A stretch of DNA of 64,000 nt from Arthrobacter sp. APC 3897 (GTDB lineage Bacteria > Actinomycetota > Actinomycetes > Actinomycetales > Micrococcaceae): positions 1 to 64,000 of the forward strand of contig NZ_JASDDG010000002.1 of the NCBI RefSeq assembly GCF_030407495.1, given 5' to 3'. Position numbers and translations under genes: made by a program. Below, piece by piece: positions 29,523 through 35,159 of the stretch. A model generated the notes under the pieces. That model did not search any database and had not been told where the DNA came from. It saw nothing but the letters and a program-made list of their open reading frames with translations. How positions within the stretch are numbered: the stretch's first letter is position 1; every line of letters starts with the position of its first letter.

Positions 29523-30176
29523 GTGCCCGCCGTGGAAAAGCCGGTACGTGAAAAGTTCGACTTCAAGAAGAACTACCCGGAACTCTACGCTCCGCGGTCC
29601 GGCGACTTTGTGCTGGTTGACGTTCCCGCCCTGCAGTATCTCGCTTATGAAGGCCACGGCGATCCGAACACGTCGCAGGAGTATCAGGGCGCCCTGGAAT
29701 GCCTCTATCCCATGGCGTATACCGTGAAGTTTGCATCCAAAAAGAGCCTTGGCCGTGATTTCACCGTCGGTCCGCTCGAAGGGCTGTGGCGCGCCGCTGA
29801 CATGGACGCCTTTATCCGCGGCGACAAGGATTCCTGGGACTGGACCATGCTGGTGGCCCAGCCCCCGTGGATTACGCCCGACCTGGTTTCGGATTCTCTC
29901 GCTGCGGTTGCCCGGAAGAAAGACCCGCCGGGGCTGGACCGGGTGCGCCTGGTAACGCTTAAGGAAGGCACCTCGGCGCAGATCCTGTACATCGGAGCCT
30001 ACGACGCCGAGGGCCCGGTCCTTGAGCGCCTGCATCACCAGTGGATGCCGGCGCACGCGCTCACCTTCAACGGCGACCATCATGAGATCTACCTCAGCGA
30101 TCCGCGCCGGACCGCGGTGCACAAGCTCCGGACGGTGCTGCGGCAGCCGGTCCGCCCGCTCGGCCCGTCTGCTTAG
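29523..30176 (+). CDS. GyrI-like small-molecule-binding domain protein
   Basis: A 217-residue soluble protein starting at GTG 29523 (an alternative GTG at 29532). The N-terminus VREKFDFKKNYPELYAP and central ASKKSLGRDFTVGPLEGLW, with QPPWITPDLV, match the GyrI-like (SHS2, BmrR effector-type) stand-alone family YdeI-like. It has no DNA-binding domain. Some members are cyclopropanoid cyclohydrolases or bind xenobiotics. The specific ligand is unknown. Confidence 0.82.
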   Translation: MPAVEKPVREKFDFKKNYPELYAPRSGDFVLVDVPALQYLAYEGHGDPNTSQEYQGALECLYPMAYTVKFASKKSLGRDFTVGPLEGLWRAADMDAFIRGDKDSWDWTMLVAQPPWITPDLVSDSLAAVARKKDPPGLDRVRLVTLKEGTSAQILYIGAYDAEGPVLERLHHQWMPAHALTFNGDHHEIYLSDPRRTAVHKLRTVLRQPVRPLGPSA

Positions 30177-30206: not shown

Positions 30207-30689
30207 TTAAGCGGCTTTGCCGGATCCCTGCGGTTTGACGACCGGTGAACACAGCATTGCTTCCAGCCGGTCATCGCTCACCCGCGTCAGGGCGGTGAGC
30301 AGTTTCACGATGCGGGCACGCTGCCGGGGGTCGAAGCGGGTGGCGTCGAGGATGTCGCTGACCCACAGCCCGTCCATGGCCAGCCGGACAATGACGCCGA
30401 TGACTCCGGTGGGCTGTCCGGGATCCAGGTTGTCCCGGTCCAGCCTGCGGTTGAGGTAGACCAGGGACTCGGCAAGGTTGGGGCGCCCGACGGCGGTGGC
30501 CAGCAGCGCCCCCTGGTCAGTGTCACTGTTGGACTCGGCATCGGAGAATGCCTTGATGTAGGCACGGTCCGAGGCTCCCACCCGTTCCCTATCCGAGTCA
30601 GCGAGCTCGCCCAGCTTGTGGACCAGCTCAATAATCATTGCTTCAACGTCCTGTTCGATTTCCTCGACAGGGGCGCCTGGCCTGAACAT
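30207..30689 (-). CDS. TetR-type C-terminal ligand-binding domain without HTH
   Basis: A 160-residue all-helical protein resembling the C-terminal half of TetR regulators (typical segments DRAYIKAFSDAES, VIVRLAMDGLWVSDILDATRFDP and RARIVKLLTALTRV). The usual N-terminal helix-turn-helix of about 50 residues is missing. The ATG at 30689 follows a near-perfect GGAGGAATA site and there is no room upstream for an HTH, because a perfect 25-bp palindrome lies 17 bp before the start. It may be a truncated regulator, a decoy or ligand-binding partner of another TetR, or a remnant. It is divergent from a YczE-type membrane protein gene. Confidence 0.7.
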   Translation of the reverse strand: MFRPGAPVEEIEQDVEAMIIELVHKLGELADSDRERVGASDRAYIKAFSDAESNSDTDQGALLATAVGRPNLAESLVYLNRRLDRDNLDPGQPTGVIGVIVRLAMDGLWVSDILDATRFDPRQRARIVKLLTALTRVSDDRLEAMLCSPVVKPQGSGKAA

Positions 30690-30705
30690 TATTCCTCCAG
30701 CTCAA

Positions 30706-30730
30706 CGGTCAACCGCCGTTCGGTTGACCG
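30706..30730. promoter_or_regulatory. perfect inverted repeat, TetR-type operator candidate
   Basis: Two 10-bp arms CGGTCAACCG and CGGTTGACCG flank a 5-bp centre (CCGTT), forming a perfect 25-bp operator of TetR-like dimensions. It lies between the divergent HTH-less TetR-like gene and the YczE gene. A TATAAC box on the minus strand near 30753 would put it just downstream of the -10. Confidence 0.75.
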
Positions 30731-30858
30731 ACCAGCTTAGCCCGGTTCCGTTATATTCTCAGCTCTTGACTTTCTTGTCCTGGACACTTTCCGCCGCTGC
30801 TCCGTCACCGGGCGGGCTCCGGTTTGAAGTCGGGCAGACAACAGGCTTGTCTTAGTCC

Positions 30859-31503
30859 ATGACATGGATCACCGTACGCCGTGCCGTCCAGCTGCTGGTC
30901 GGCCTGTTTTGCTATGGCTTTGCCATCGGCATGATGATCCAGGCCCATCTGGGCGTTTCCCCCTGGGATGTGCTGGGACAGGGCGCAGCCCGCTCATCAG
31001 GCATCCCGTTCGGCGTGGTGACCGTCCTGATCGGGGCACTGGTGCTGCTGCTGTGGATTCCGCTGCGGCAGAAGCCGGGAATCGGCACCGTCCTGAACGT
31101 CCTGATGATTGGCCCCAGCGCGGAAGTCTGCATTGCCCTGGTATCCGTCCCGGAGCAGCTGTGGGCAAAGGTCCTGCTGTTCACCGGCGGTTTGGTGCTG
31201 CTGGCTGCCGCCACCGGCATCTACCTCGGTGCGCGGTTGGGACCGGGACCGCGGGACGGTCTGATGACCGGAATGCACCGCCGGTTCGGCTGGCCCGTGT
31301 GGGCGGCACGCACCGGCATCGAGGTGGGTGTGCTCAGCGCAGGGTGGGCGCTCGGAGGCACCGTGGGGCTGGGAACCGTGGCCTTTGCCCTGCTGGTGGG
31401 ACCGATGGTCAGCCGGACAATGCCGTTCTTTGATATCCGGGCGCTCGGTCCGCTCCCGGACGTGTCACGTCCGCGGTCCGTAGGTCAGGATGGCATTGCC
31501 TGA
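30859..31503 (+). CDS. YczE/YitT-type integral membrane protein
   Basis: A 214-residue protein with about five membrane helices. It begins TWITVRRAVQLLVGLFCYGF and has the family's GVSPWDVLGQGAARSSGIPFG loop and LGARLGPGPRDGLMTGM segment. Function is unknown; relatives in Bacillus affect export of surfactin-like compounds. No Shine-Dalgarno lies before ATG 30859, so it may be leaderless; TTGAAG lies 17 bp ahead of TTGTCT just upstream. Divergent transcription from a TetR-like ligand-binding protein suggests regulated export of a small molecule. Its 3' end overlaps the convergent DHFR-like gene by 39 bp. Confidence 0.82.
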   Translation: MTWITVRRAVQLLVGLFCYGFAIGMMIQAHLGVSPWDVLGQGAARSSGIPFGVVTVLIGALVLLLWIPLRQKPGIGTVLNVLMIGPSAEVCIALVSVPEQLWAKVLLFTGGLVLLAAATGIYLGARLGPGPRDGLMTGMHRRFGWPVWAARTGIEVGVLSAGWALGGTVGLGTVAFALLVGPMVSRTMPFFDIRALGPLPDVSRPRSVGQDGIA

Positions 31504-32156: not shown

Positions 32157-32501
32157 ATGGTTGACGGCCCGTCTTCAAGCCCCGGAACGCAGGGACAACC
32201 TGCCGGCTACGGCAATGTTCCGGTGATTTTCGCTGCGGTGCTGGCCGCCGTGGCCGGCGTGGCGGTGGCTGTCTTTTCCACCGGCGGAACGGAACGGGAA
32301 TTCCGGTGGGAGCTGGGACTCGCCGCTGCCTGCGCAACATTCATCGTGTCCCTGCTGATTTTTCTGCTGCTGATCCTTACGTCCCGCCCCAACCCCGAAG
32401 AGCTGGGCAGGGGCACCGGCGTCAGGAGGAGCTTCGGTTCCCTTCCGGACGCGGCCGACGGCGATGACGGGTACCGCCCGGACGGCACCAACCCGCGCTA
32501 G
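32157..32501 (+). CDS. small two-helix membrane protein (hypothetical)
   Basis: A 114-residue protein starting at ATG 32157 after AGGAGGAAACATC. Two hydrophobic helices (VPVIFAAVLAAVAGVAVAVF and FIVSLLIFLLLILTS) are separated by a short charged loop with EREFRW, and the C-terminus is polar (DAADGDDGYRPDG). No family recognised. Its TAG stop shares 4 bp (CTAG) with the convergent TetR gene stop. Confidence 0.7.
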   Translation: MVDGPSSSPGTQGQPAGYGNVPVIFAAVLAAVAGVAVAVFSTGGTEREFRWELGLAAACATFIVSLLIFLLLILTSRPNPEELGRGTGVRRSFGSLPDAADGDDGYRPDGTNPR

Positions 32502-33127
32502 GAGCTAAAGATCCGGCCCAGAAGTACCCCCGCGCGCCGCATGATTCCGGCGTCCGGCCACACGTCGTCGTGCTCCAGATGGTTCTGCTGCAGCACCACC
32601 CGGACCACCCCCAGCGCCAGTCCCACCACCATGCCGGCCTCCGCGCCCAGATCCGGTTCGGACCGGCGGAGACCCGCAGCGGTGTAACGTTCCACCACTA
32701 GGTCCGTCAGCTGTTTCTCATGGTCCGCCATCCATTCGTTCTGCTTCGAAAAGAGTTCGGGCGAGGCCATGATGGCCTTCATTCTGCGGCCGGCCAGCTC
32801 CGGATCGGGCTGGCCGGCCACCAGGGCGGAAACCACGGCCGCAGCAAGGCTCAGGACCACCGGGGTGCCGTGGTCCGGCAGGAACTTCCGGGCAACGGCA
32901 TCCCGCATTTCGGCCGGCGGCAGGCCCAGGAACACACCCTCCTTCGAACCGAAATAGTTGAAGAACGTCCGCTGGGACACCATGCATGCTGCGCAGATCA
33001 TGTCCACCGTGACGTTGTCATAACCCCGTTCCAGGACCATCGCCACGGCCGTTCGTTCGATCTCGGACCGGGCAGCCGCGCGCTTGCGGGCACGCAGTCC
33101 GCCGGATGCTTGAGCAGCGGAATCCAT
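32498..33127 (-). CDS. TetR/AcrR-family transcriptional regulator
   Basis: A 209-residue regulator; I choose ATG 33127 (MDSAAQAS) because AGGAAGG precedes it. The frame is open up to 33160. The helix-turn-helix is at about residues 15-60 (MVLERGYDNVTVDMICAACMVSQRTFFNYFGSKEGVF, with the classic TFFNYFGSKE). The C-terminal ligand domain follows. It lies 41 bp after the MacB-type permease gene and in the same direction, so it probably represses the ABC exporter operon upstream of it. Confidence 0.9.
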   Translation of the reverse strand: MDSAAQASGGLRARKRAAARSEIERTAVAMVLERGYDNVTVDMICAACMVSQRTFFNYFGSKEGVFLGLPPAEMRDAVARKFLPDHGTPVVLSLAAAVVSALVAGQPDPELAGRRMKAIMASPELFSKQNEWMADHEKQLTDLVVERYTAAGLRRSEPDLGAEAGMVVGLALGVVRVVLQQNHLEHDDVWPDAGIMRRAGVLLGRIFSS

Positions 33128-33168
33128 CACTGTGCCTTCCTCCCCCATCCGGCCTTCCATGTCCGCCG

Positions 33169-34440
33169 CTACTCGTACCGCAGGGCGTCGATGGGGTTCT
33201 GCCGGGCTGCCCGCCGGGCCGGCAGCGTGCCGGCCAGGAAAGCAATCAACATGACAACGCCAATAATGGTGGCCACGGCGGCCGGCGTAAACAGCATGAT
33301 ATTCAGCCCGGGCAGGGCCGACAGTACGGTGTTGGACAGGACGGAGCTGATGGCCGTGCCGAGCCCCATCGCGACACCAGCCCCAAGAGCGGAACCGAGG
33401 AAGCCAATGAAGATCGCTTCGAAGCTGAACAGGGCGAAGATCTTGCCGCCGCCCATGCCCATGGCCTTCATCAGGCCGATCTCCCGGGTGCGTTCCTGCA
33501 CGCTCATCAGCAGGGTGTTGACGATGCCGAAGCCGGCGGCAATCAGGGCAATGACGGCGAAGGCGTTCAGGACACCGATGATGCCGTTGATGACGGTCTG
33601 GATGGCGCCAATCTGGTCCGCCACGGTCAGACCGGTAAAGCCCTGGTCGGCGAGGTCTGACTTGATGCCGTCCAGCTCCTCCGCGCTGATGTCGGTGGAC
33701 AGGTAGGCCACGGAGGTAATGTAGCCGCTGGGAACACCGGCCGGCATGCCGGTCTTCTGCAGGGCATCCATTTCGGTGCGCAGATCTTCGTTGAAACCGA
33801 CGCCGTCGCCGAACAACGAGTCATTCTGCACGCCGGCCACCACGGCATCCACGGTGTGCCGGGTTCCGGCGTAATCCGTCACGGCGATGGAGACGGTCTT
33901 TTCCAGTGCTGCCTCGGCGTCGGTGAAGCCCATCGGTTCCAGGTACGAGGACGGAAGCAGCAGCTCAGGCGATCCGCTGCCGTCTTCGAGCTGCCGCCCG
34001 GCGGCCAGGTCCGCGTCTGCCAGCCCGATCATCGGGTTGACGCTCAGCTCAAACCGGGTCCCGCCGTCGTATTGGATGTAATCCGGTGCCAGCATGGCGG
34101 CCGGTTCCACCTTGTCGATGCCGTCAGTGGCGCGGATGGCCTCGATGTCCGCGTCGGAGAGCAGCGTGAAGTTGCCCTGGGTGGCGGCGCCGTCGGGATC
34201 GTATTCCCGGGGTCCGTCGTCGGACGCTCCGGCTTCCGCAGCGGGTGAAACAGTGAGCAGGTCATCGCCGCCAATGGCCCCAATCTGCTTGTCGATATAG
34301 TCCGAGACGCCAGCGCCGATTGCGCTGGTGAGGGTCAGCGTGAACGCGCCGATGAAGATGGCGACGACGGTCAGCGCGGTGCGGACCTTGCTGCGGAAGG
34401 TGTTGGAGATGGCAGAACGGAGAATGTCGCCGAAGGTCAT
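33169..34440 (-). CDS. ABC transporter permease, MacB/FtsX type
   Basis: A 423-residue permease with one N-terminal helix (ALTVVAIFIGAFTLTLTSAIG), a large extracytoplasmic domain of about residues 45-270, and three C-terminal FtsX helices (including IGVLNAFAVIALIAAGFGIVNTLLM and a final PAAVATIIGVVMLIAFLAGTLPARRAARQNPIDALRYE). This mechanotransmission architecture moves peptides, lipoproteins or drugs rather than importing nutrients. It overlaps the ATPase gene by 4 bp (ATGA), so they are translationally coupled. Confidence 0.92.
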   Translation of the reverse strand: MTFGDILRSAISNTFRSKVRTALTVVAIFIGAFTLTLTSAIGAGVSDYIDKQIGAIGGDDLLTVSPAAEAGASDDGPREYDPDGAATQGNFTLLSDADIEAIRATDGIDKVEPAAMLAPDYIQYDGGTRFELSVNPMIGLADADLAAGRQLEDGSGSPELLLPSSYLEPMGFTDAEAALEKTVSIAVTDYAGTRHTVDAVVAGVQNDSLFGDGVGFNEDLRTEMDALQKTGMPAGVPSGYITSVAYLSTDISAEELDGIKSDLADQGFTGLTVADQIGAIQTVINGIIGVLNAFAVIALIAAGFGIVNTLLMSVQERTREIGLMKAMGMGGGKIFALFSFEAIFIGFLGSALGAGVAMGLGTAISSVLSNTVLSALPGLNIMLFTPAAVATIIGVVMLIAFLAGTLPARRAARQNPIDALRYE

Positions 34441-35159
34441 GCGGAGGCCCCTGTGGTGATGGTGGTTGAAGTGAGTTCATCGGCGGACACTTCCCGGCCG
34501 TCCCTGATGTAGAACTGGCGGCTGCAGCGTGCGGCAAGGTCGGTGTCGTGGGTGACCGTGATCAGGGTGATGCCCTGCTCCCGGTTCAGGTCAAAGAGGA
34601 TGTCTTCCACGACGGCGCCGGTGGCCGTGTCCAGGTTGCCGGTGGGCTCGTCGGCAAAGATGACCGAGGGGTTGTTCACCAGGGCCCGGGCGATGACCAC
34701 GCGCTGCTTTTGTCCGCCGGACAAATCCGTGGCCTTGTTCCTGGCCTTGTCCGCCATTTCCAGGCGCTCCAGGGCTTCCATGCCGCGCTTTCTGCGTTCG
34801 GCAGGCTTCACCCCGGCAATCATCAGCGGCAGCACGACGTTGTCCAGCACGGAGGAGTTGGGGGTGAGGAAGAACTGCTGGAACACGAACCCGAAGTCCC
34901 GGTTGCGCAGTTCGTTCAGCTCGTTCCTGCCCAGCGAGCGGGCGTCCTGTCCTTTAACCGAGATGGTGCCTGCATCGGGGGTGTCCAGCAGGGCGAGCAA
35001 ATGCATGAGCGTGGACTTGCCCGAGCCGGACTTGCCGACAATGGCCAGGGATTCGCCGGCCCCAACAGCAAGGCTGACCCCTTTGAGGGCGTCAAAGCGG
35101 TTCTCCCCCTGCCCGTACGACTTGGTCAGGTCCTGTGCGCTGAGTACGTGTGGTGTCAT
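34437..35159 (-). CDS. ABC transporter ATP-binding protein (MacB/LolD type)
   Basis: A 240-residue ATPase with Walker A GKSGSGKSTLMHLL near residue 37, Q-loop FVFQQFFLTPNSS, signature LSGGQKQRVVIARAL, Walker B VIFADEPTGNLD and H-loop TVTHDTD. The LDTATG and FFLTPNSS features are typical of the MacB/LolD group. It is the first gene of the operon with the FtsX-type permease and TetR regulator. A pair of 11-bp direct repeats lies 24 bp upstream of its start. Confidence 0.94.
   Translation of the reverse strand: MTPHVLSAQDLTKSYGQGENRFDALKGVSLAVGAGESLAIVGKSGSGKSTLMHLLALLDTPDAGTISVKGQDARSLGRNELNELRNRDFGFVFQQFFLTPNSSVLDNVVLPLMIAGVKPAERRKRGMEALERLEMADKARNKATDLSGGQKQRVVIARALVNNPSVIFADEPTGNLDTATGAVVEDILFDLNREQGITLITVTHDTDLAARCSRQFYIRDGREVSADELTSTTITTGASA

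Follow-up and report, generated by a model that had tools for sequence, protein, structure and literature searches.

The gene at positions 30207–30689 (minus strand, stop codon included) of a 64,000-nucleotide stretch of Arthrobacter sp. APC 3897 (contig NZ_JASDDG010000002.1; the whole stretch is hereafter the window) encodes a stand-alone TetR ligand/effector domain, 160 residues long from an ATG start, classed as TetR_C_28 and devoid of a helix-turn-helix (HTH). The HTH-less TetR-fold family to which it belongs is real and conserved, in this sample confined to the Micrococcaceae, and the gene is under purifying selection. Our best explanation, held tentatively and with slightly less than even confidence, is that the product is an independent effector-binding protein with the fold of TetR, and that the palindrome ahead of the gene is a leader stem-loop rather than an operator.

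A TetR effector domain encoded on its own

Pfam assigns residues 41–136 to TetR_C_28 (PF17937; E value 1.2e-18, 67.7 bits against a curated cut-off of 26.4) and finds no TetR_N (PF00440) in the 160-residue protein, two further rows (E values of 0.077 and 0.14) lying under their cut-offs. This bears out the first-pass annotation, which had matched the protein to the C-terminal half of TetR alone. PF17937 is likewise matched by all 25 HTH-less family members searched (25/25). A strong ribosome binding site at the gene's own ATG, also proposed earlier, is present as the Shine–Dalgarno sequence GGAGG (30694–30698, minus strand), 4 bases 5′ of the start codon and retained in seven of seven window-clade genomes.

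The N-terminus of the protein coincides with the HTH/α4 border. Hand alignment places the start between 0 and about 11 residues ahead of the Y-H-F end; the first dozen residues are of uncertain register relative to the HTH end, as automatic alignment spreads them. A lysine in a PSK/SK motif opens α4 in full-length relatives; the window protein has no lysine before residue 25. With the TetR_C_28 regulators the family shares the C-terminal effector domain, the core residues R/LA-DGLW (common to the HTH-less proteins and 45 aligned full-length ligand domains) and the predicted fold. It differs from them in the missing N-terminal HTH, in an identity of 18–32% to those 45 domains and in ten invariant residues of its own (E12, V15, F48, N54, Q59, N80, D84, M105, R118 and F119), of which the N-terminal members hinge on the alignment. 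W109 is also invariant. The 29 distinct orthologous proteins are all acidic, with isoelectric points of 4.4–4.9.

An AlphaFold model (predicted local distance difference test score, pLDDT, 81.6) is composed of helices only, with zero strands. Its input combined 25 close sequences with the 45 full-length ligand domains; the 25 close sequences alone gave an unusable model. The predicted structure superposes on TetR chains, weakly as judged by Foldseek E value, and Foldseek alone returned zero matches at E ≤ 0.001. The nearest solved fold is that of CgmR from Corynebacterium glutamicum (2yve, 2zoz).

Distribution, conservation and the missing HTH

The closest named relatives occupy 19 loci (17 from Arthrobacter and two from Kocuria), and the 20th closest, L020, is a full-length TetR from an Anaerolineae bacterium. 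Profile searching located orthologs in 30 of 395 sampled Micrococcaceae genomes, spread over five of 32 genera; within the window's genus, the gene is present in 16 of 29 genomes. All 30 Micrococcaceae matches have E values of at most 4.9e-73, with nothing between this value and the 1e-12 limit. The phylum sample (396 genomes) contributed, beyond the window gene, five distant relatives in four genomes (E values 8e-10 to 7e-6), all full-length. Nine candidates were scored per genome in the family and phylum searches, and up to 24 and up to 16 in later profile searches; weak relatives may escape at these depths. In a plasmid collection the sole relative is a full-length Cupriavidus protein, in two records (full length confirmed for one).

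G239 and G269 have identical upstream contexts; counting them once gives 29 distinct orthologs, and all 29 contexts share the start codon position, using ATG in 27 and GTG in two. Across the 14 ortholog pairs computed, the ratio of non-synonymous to synonymous substitution rates (dN/dS) is 0.012–0.289. Six-frame scanning of the 450 bp upstream (30690–31139, minus strand, in the window) with an HTH profile revealed no hidden HTH in any of the 29 distinct orthologs, the best score being 5.1 bits (E value 0.047). The profile was derived from the genome's own TetR proteins, recovering their 37 loci (37/37) by construction, and it detects four of four full-length TetR_C_28 controls at 48.8–60.1 bits. 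With no HTH in any upstream frame, a frameshifted or split gene is ruled out. The first-pass annotation had treated the HTH-less domain as a genuine gene, while warning that a frameshift or assembly error might hide an HTH frame, or that close relatives might carry a full-length protein. Neither turned up, in the 29 distinct contexts or among the orthologs, and the shared start, dN/dS values and missing upstream HTH uphold a genuine, selected gene.

The gene is not a recent truncation, because the same start and the missing HTH recur in 30 genomes, selection is purifying and zero hidden HTHs were found. All 48 further TetR_C_28 loci in the scan, of which 45 are distinct, have a same-frame HTH (L020, L025, L070–L074, 12 others of one search and 29 fetched out of 72 others of another), and the HTH-less proteins therefore form a genuine stand-alone effector-domain family. 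A search of 296 genomes gave 73 matches in 63 of them, and of these matches the window protein has the shortest open frame, at 164 residues against at least 176.

The palindrome and the mRNA leader

The window gene would be transcribed alone, from a putative σ70-like promoter conserved in relatives. The predicted −10 element, TAAGCT (30734–30739, minus strand), leaves a footprint in relatives, where it is mostly TAGACT; the pattern is found in 24 of 29 contexts and unmatched in five. A predicted −35 element, CTGAGA (30757–30762, minus strand; position taken from sequence), lies across a 17-bp spacer and is missing in G008; GCTGAG/CTGAGA was spotted by eye at the −35 place in many members of the genus.

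Between this promoter and the ribosome binding site is a 25-bp palindrome (30706–30730, minus strand), CGGTCAACCG-CCGTT-CGGTTGACCG, with a 10-bp stem and 5-nt loop. The first-pass annotation was right that it is exact; it lies 16 bases from the ATG, rather than the 17 given there. With its start 3 bases past the −10 hexamer, the palindrome spans the expected transcription start; about eight of the ten base pairs would probably lie inside the RNA. A bare palindrome is not unusual in the window, which holds six distinct inverted repeats that are perfect and have arms of at least 10 and loops of 3–8 (nine entries including nested ones; 20 equally long first-order Markov sequences average 0.9 entries). 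This one is notable for its vicinity to the start codon and for its conservation in seven genomes, the only ones to have it: it is exact in the window genome, G007 and G024, differs at one arm base in G023, G003 and G008, and at two in G002. The leader from the −10 to the ATG is strongly conserved across all seven.

A scan of the 3.79-Mb assembly with the palindrome arms, as first proposed, yielded no second copy with under 3 mismatches and two places at 3. The earlier suggestion that an operator had outlived its HTH is not supported either: proteins without the HTH occur in both Arthrobacter and Kocuria, the palindrome only in the seven close genomes; being narrower in distribution, the palindrome therefore looks younger than HTH loss.

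Among the five distinct palindrome versions, 49 of 50 cells pair, and three pair columns shift to G.U, none of the changes being double-sided. Other stems occupy the same leader place in two sister groups. In one, a single pair reads G-C, G-U and A-U in G005, G013 and G012, respectively; the same series is found in the other (G004 with G015, G011 and G006), whose pairs were counted on hand-anchored arms. This sister-group evidence comes down to one position and is a modest argument. Overall, G.U in the mRNA sense accounts for six of the seven non-Watson–Crick cells, with one cell common to G002 and G003. Of the 24 leaders whose −10 was matched by the pattern, 14 have a 5′ stem of at least 7 bp, five have one of 4–5 bp, and five have none or an imperfect one; leader-fold z-scores range from −3.3 to +0.6.

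Search for a TetR partner or operator user

The genome has 37 TetR_N loci, none of which fits the family profile better than an E value of 0.24, and no close full-length paralogue that might serve as a partner is found among them. The sole other TetR_C_28 regulator of the genome, P0002 (G000:C12:93985-94554), is 20% identical to the window protein; all 29 genus genomes have it, with or without the gene, and it was rejected as a partner for this lack of association. No full-length TetR_C_28 gene adjoins the HTH-less gene. Palindrome-like sites near the 37 TetR genes reach 5 mismatches at best, where 40 scrambled palindromes gave 3–6. The initial proposal of a partner or decoy of another TetR thus found no positive support, with no full-length sibling and P0002 universal in the genus.

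Genomic neighbourhood

Convergent with the gene is a stand-alone GyrI-like small-molecule-binding protein (29523–30176, plus strand; PF06445, E value 5e-14). The adjoining of two HTH-less ligand domains, GyrI-like and TetR_C_28, is seen in the window clade only. The divergent neighbour encodes the membrane protein YczE (30859–31503, plus strand; NF052291, E value 7.9e-72); a published analysis ties a membrane-protein gene family to MocR regulators (PMC4944035). No MocR gene was noted beside the window yczE. In G005 and G001, yczE is convergent and adjacent; in G012 it is some 6 kb off, with ABC transporter genes between. Farther along the window, a weakly MftR-like TetR regulator (32498–33160) stands beside a MacB/LolD-like ABC exporter pair (33169–35159), on the minus strand.

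Neighbours in relatives differ (GNAT, ABC permeases, a major facilitator superfamily (MFS) protein, DnaB, FUSC, a thiamine pyrophosphate (TPP) enzyme and an AHSA1 protein), and none is common to all 19 loci; the calls come from a crude open-reading-frame picker run on flanks of at most 5 kb, which overlooked the gene itself in three loci. Upstream of the gene is dnaB in the Arthrobacter loci L007 (3519–4889) and L009 (2055–4889) and, about 3.7 kb upstream, in the Kocuria locus L018 (1–1308). This shared upstream dnaB favours descent over transfer, at least in these loci, and its vicinity is perhaps the older place of the gene. The DnaB proteins of L009 and L018 contain an intein-like insert (hallmarks: start after GK, end HNS), absent from the L007 DnaB.

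Across the 29 genomes of the genus, the gene and yczE are both present in 15 and both missing in 12, with the gene alone in G014 and yczE alone in G016; outside the genus, yczE is found in 10 of 14 gene-bearing genomes versus 232 of 352 gene-free ones. G019 has an empty site (L187, 13510–14744) that lacks both, with 29 bp between its GyrI-like and reductase matches, and G008 retains the gene with yczE gone from the locus. A fixed operon partner is unlikely, because neighbours vary across loci, the gene and yczE were lost together in G019, and the gene was kept without yczE in G008. YczE was also rejected as a functional partner, on these same two genomes and the lack of association outside the genus; co-loss of linked genes explains the pattern.

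Weighing the explanations

The palindrome could instead be an operator through which a dimeric regulator whose gene lies elsewhere, a TetR or another kind, controls the gene and perhaps yczE. In favour of an operator, the symmetry is perfect, with 10-bp arms placed right after the −10, and the arms are largely kept across the seven genomes while the centre varies. Pair measures for the five versions equal those of shuffles and are uninformative alone; G001 has only an imperfect stem outside the sister-group series and was excluded from the pair count. An operator has to contend with sites near the 37 TetR genes that are no closer than scrambled palindromes, and with the absence of the palindrome from other clades. 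Because departures lean to mRNA-sense G.U, differing sister stems occupy the same place and no second genomic copy was found, a leader stem-loop appears probable from these sequence patterns and, in our judgement, likelier than an operator, which we consider somewhat unlikely.

As to the protein, a trans-acting antagonist or co-sensor would join a full-length TetR, or some other regulator, in ligand-dependent hetero-oligomers and lower its DNA binding. Precedents are CerN/CerM, TrlR/TraR and FleT/FleQ, as described in passages of PMC11655674, and the 37 TetR_N matches and the retained RLA-DGLW core of the ligand/dimer domain suit such a role. Against it stand the best TetR locus reaching only E 0.24 with the family profile, a P0002 that does not track the gene and the lack of an adjacent full-length TetR_C_28 gene. 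By analogy with CerN and CerM, themselves 31% identical, the missing close sibling would weaken this explanation without excluding it; we regard it as unlikely. A repurposed enzyme, with the old ligand pocket now catalytic on a xenobiotic as in some stand-alone GyrI-like proteins, is quite improbable; one GyrI-like subfamily is described as having turned into cyclopropanoid hydrolases (PMC5684135). The invariant, family-specific polar residues N54, Q59, N80, D84 and R118 would be compatible with catalysis, but no catalytic motif was identified in the protein. Nor is any TetR-fold enzyme known to us (no search aimed at one was made), which counts against this idea. That a full-length TetR gene has decayed here, or was misassembled, is suggested by HTH absence alone and is scarcely credible in the face of 30 genomes from five genera, the same start in 29 of 29, dN/dS well under 1 and no HTH in any frame.

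Proposed function and known systems

Lacking an HTH, the protein is excluded as a classical TetR repressor and cannot contact DNA in the TetR manner. Under our favoured explanation of an independent effector-binding protein, the product would be the TetR_C_28 ligand domain from α4 onward, most likely dimerizing through the usual TetR helices and with a small molecule, hydrophobic or cationic, as its most likely ligand. It would more probably act by holding its ligand, as a buffer or sponge; alternatively, it may make ligand-dependent contact with another protein. The palindrome would form a 5′-proximal stem-loop in the gene's own mRNA, serving stability or translation control.

Cass2 is likewise an effector domain encoded without a DNA-binding domain; it binds benzalkonium, tetraphenylphosphonium (also abbreviated TPP) and chlorhexidine with dissociation constants (KD) of 0.1–0.2 µM, and drug sequestration or pairing with a DNA-binding partner has been proposed as its role (passages of PMC3048380). 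Cass2 has the β-barrel of the AraC-effector fold, whereas the protein here has an all-helical model, matches PF17937 and has no PF06445 match; therefore it works like a Cass2-kind protein, rather than being one. Cass2 is found on integron cassettes, whereas a window-type gene was not seen on one. The truncated LuxR antagonists CerN and TrlR also lack the HTH and keep the ligand domain; they belong to another protein family and have a known full-length partner (passages of PMC11655674), whereas none was found here. The ligand domain of STM3175 alone raises albicidin tolerance, and STM3175/YgiV and AlbA protect by binding (passages of PMC10414762); unlike here, the HTH is still present and the folds are different ones.

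More broadly, and more tentatively still, the family may be a lineage-specific TetR counterpart of Cass2 and CerN: an effector-binding ligand domain cut at the α4 border and placed in its own gene with an RNA leader hairpin, acting either as a sponge or, gated by ligand, as an antagonist of unrelated TetRs. TetR proteins are regarded as one-component regulators, with sensor and HTH in a single chain, and our searches of the open PMC library, judged mostly from listings rather than full papers, brought up no described HTH-less TetR family (subscription papers and preprints lay outside their scope). A conserved sensor-only family shows that the ligand half of a TetR can be worth retaining by itself, and the annotation ‘TetR family regulator’ would be misleading for HTH-less genes. 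The small acidic domain is usable for ligand screening, and the choice between a sponge and a trans-acting antagonist becomes testable.
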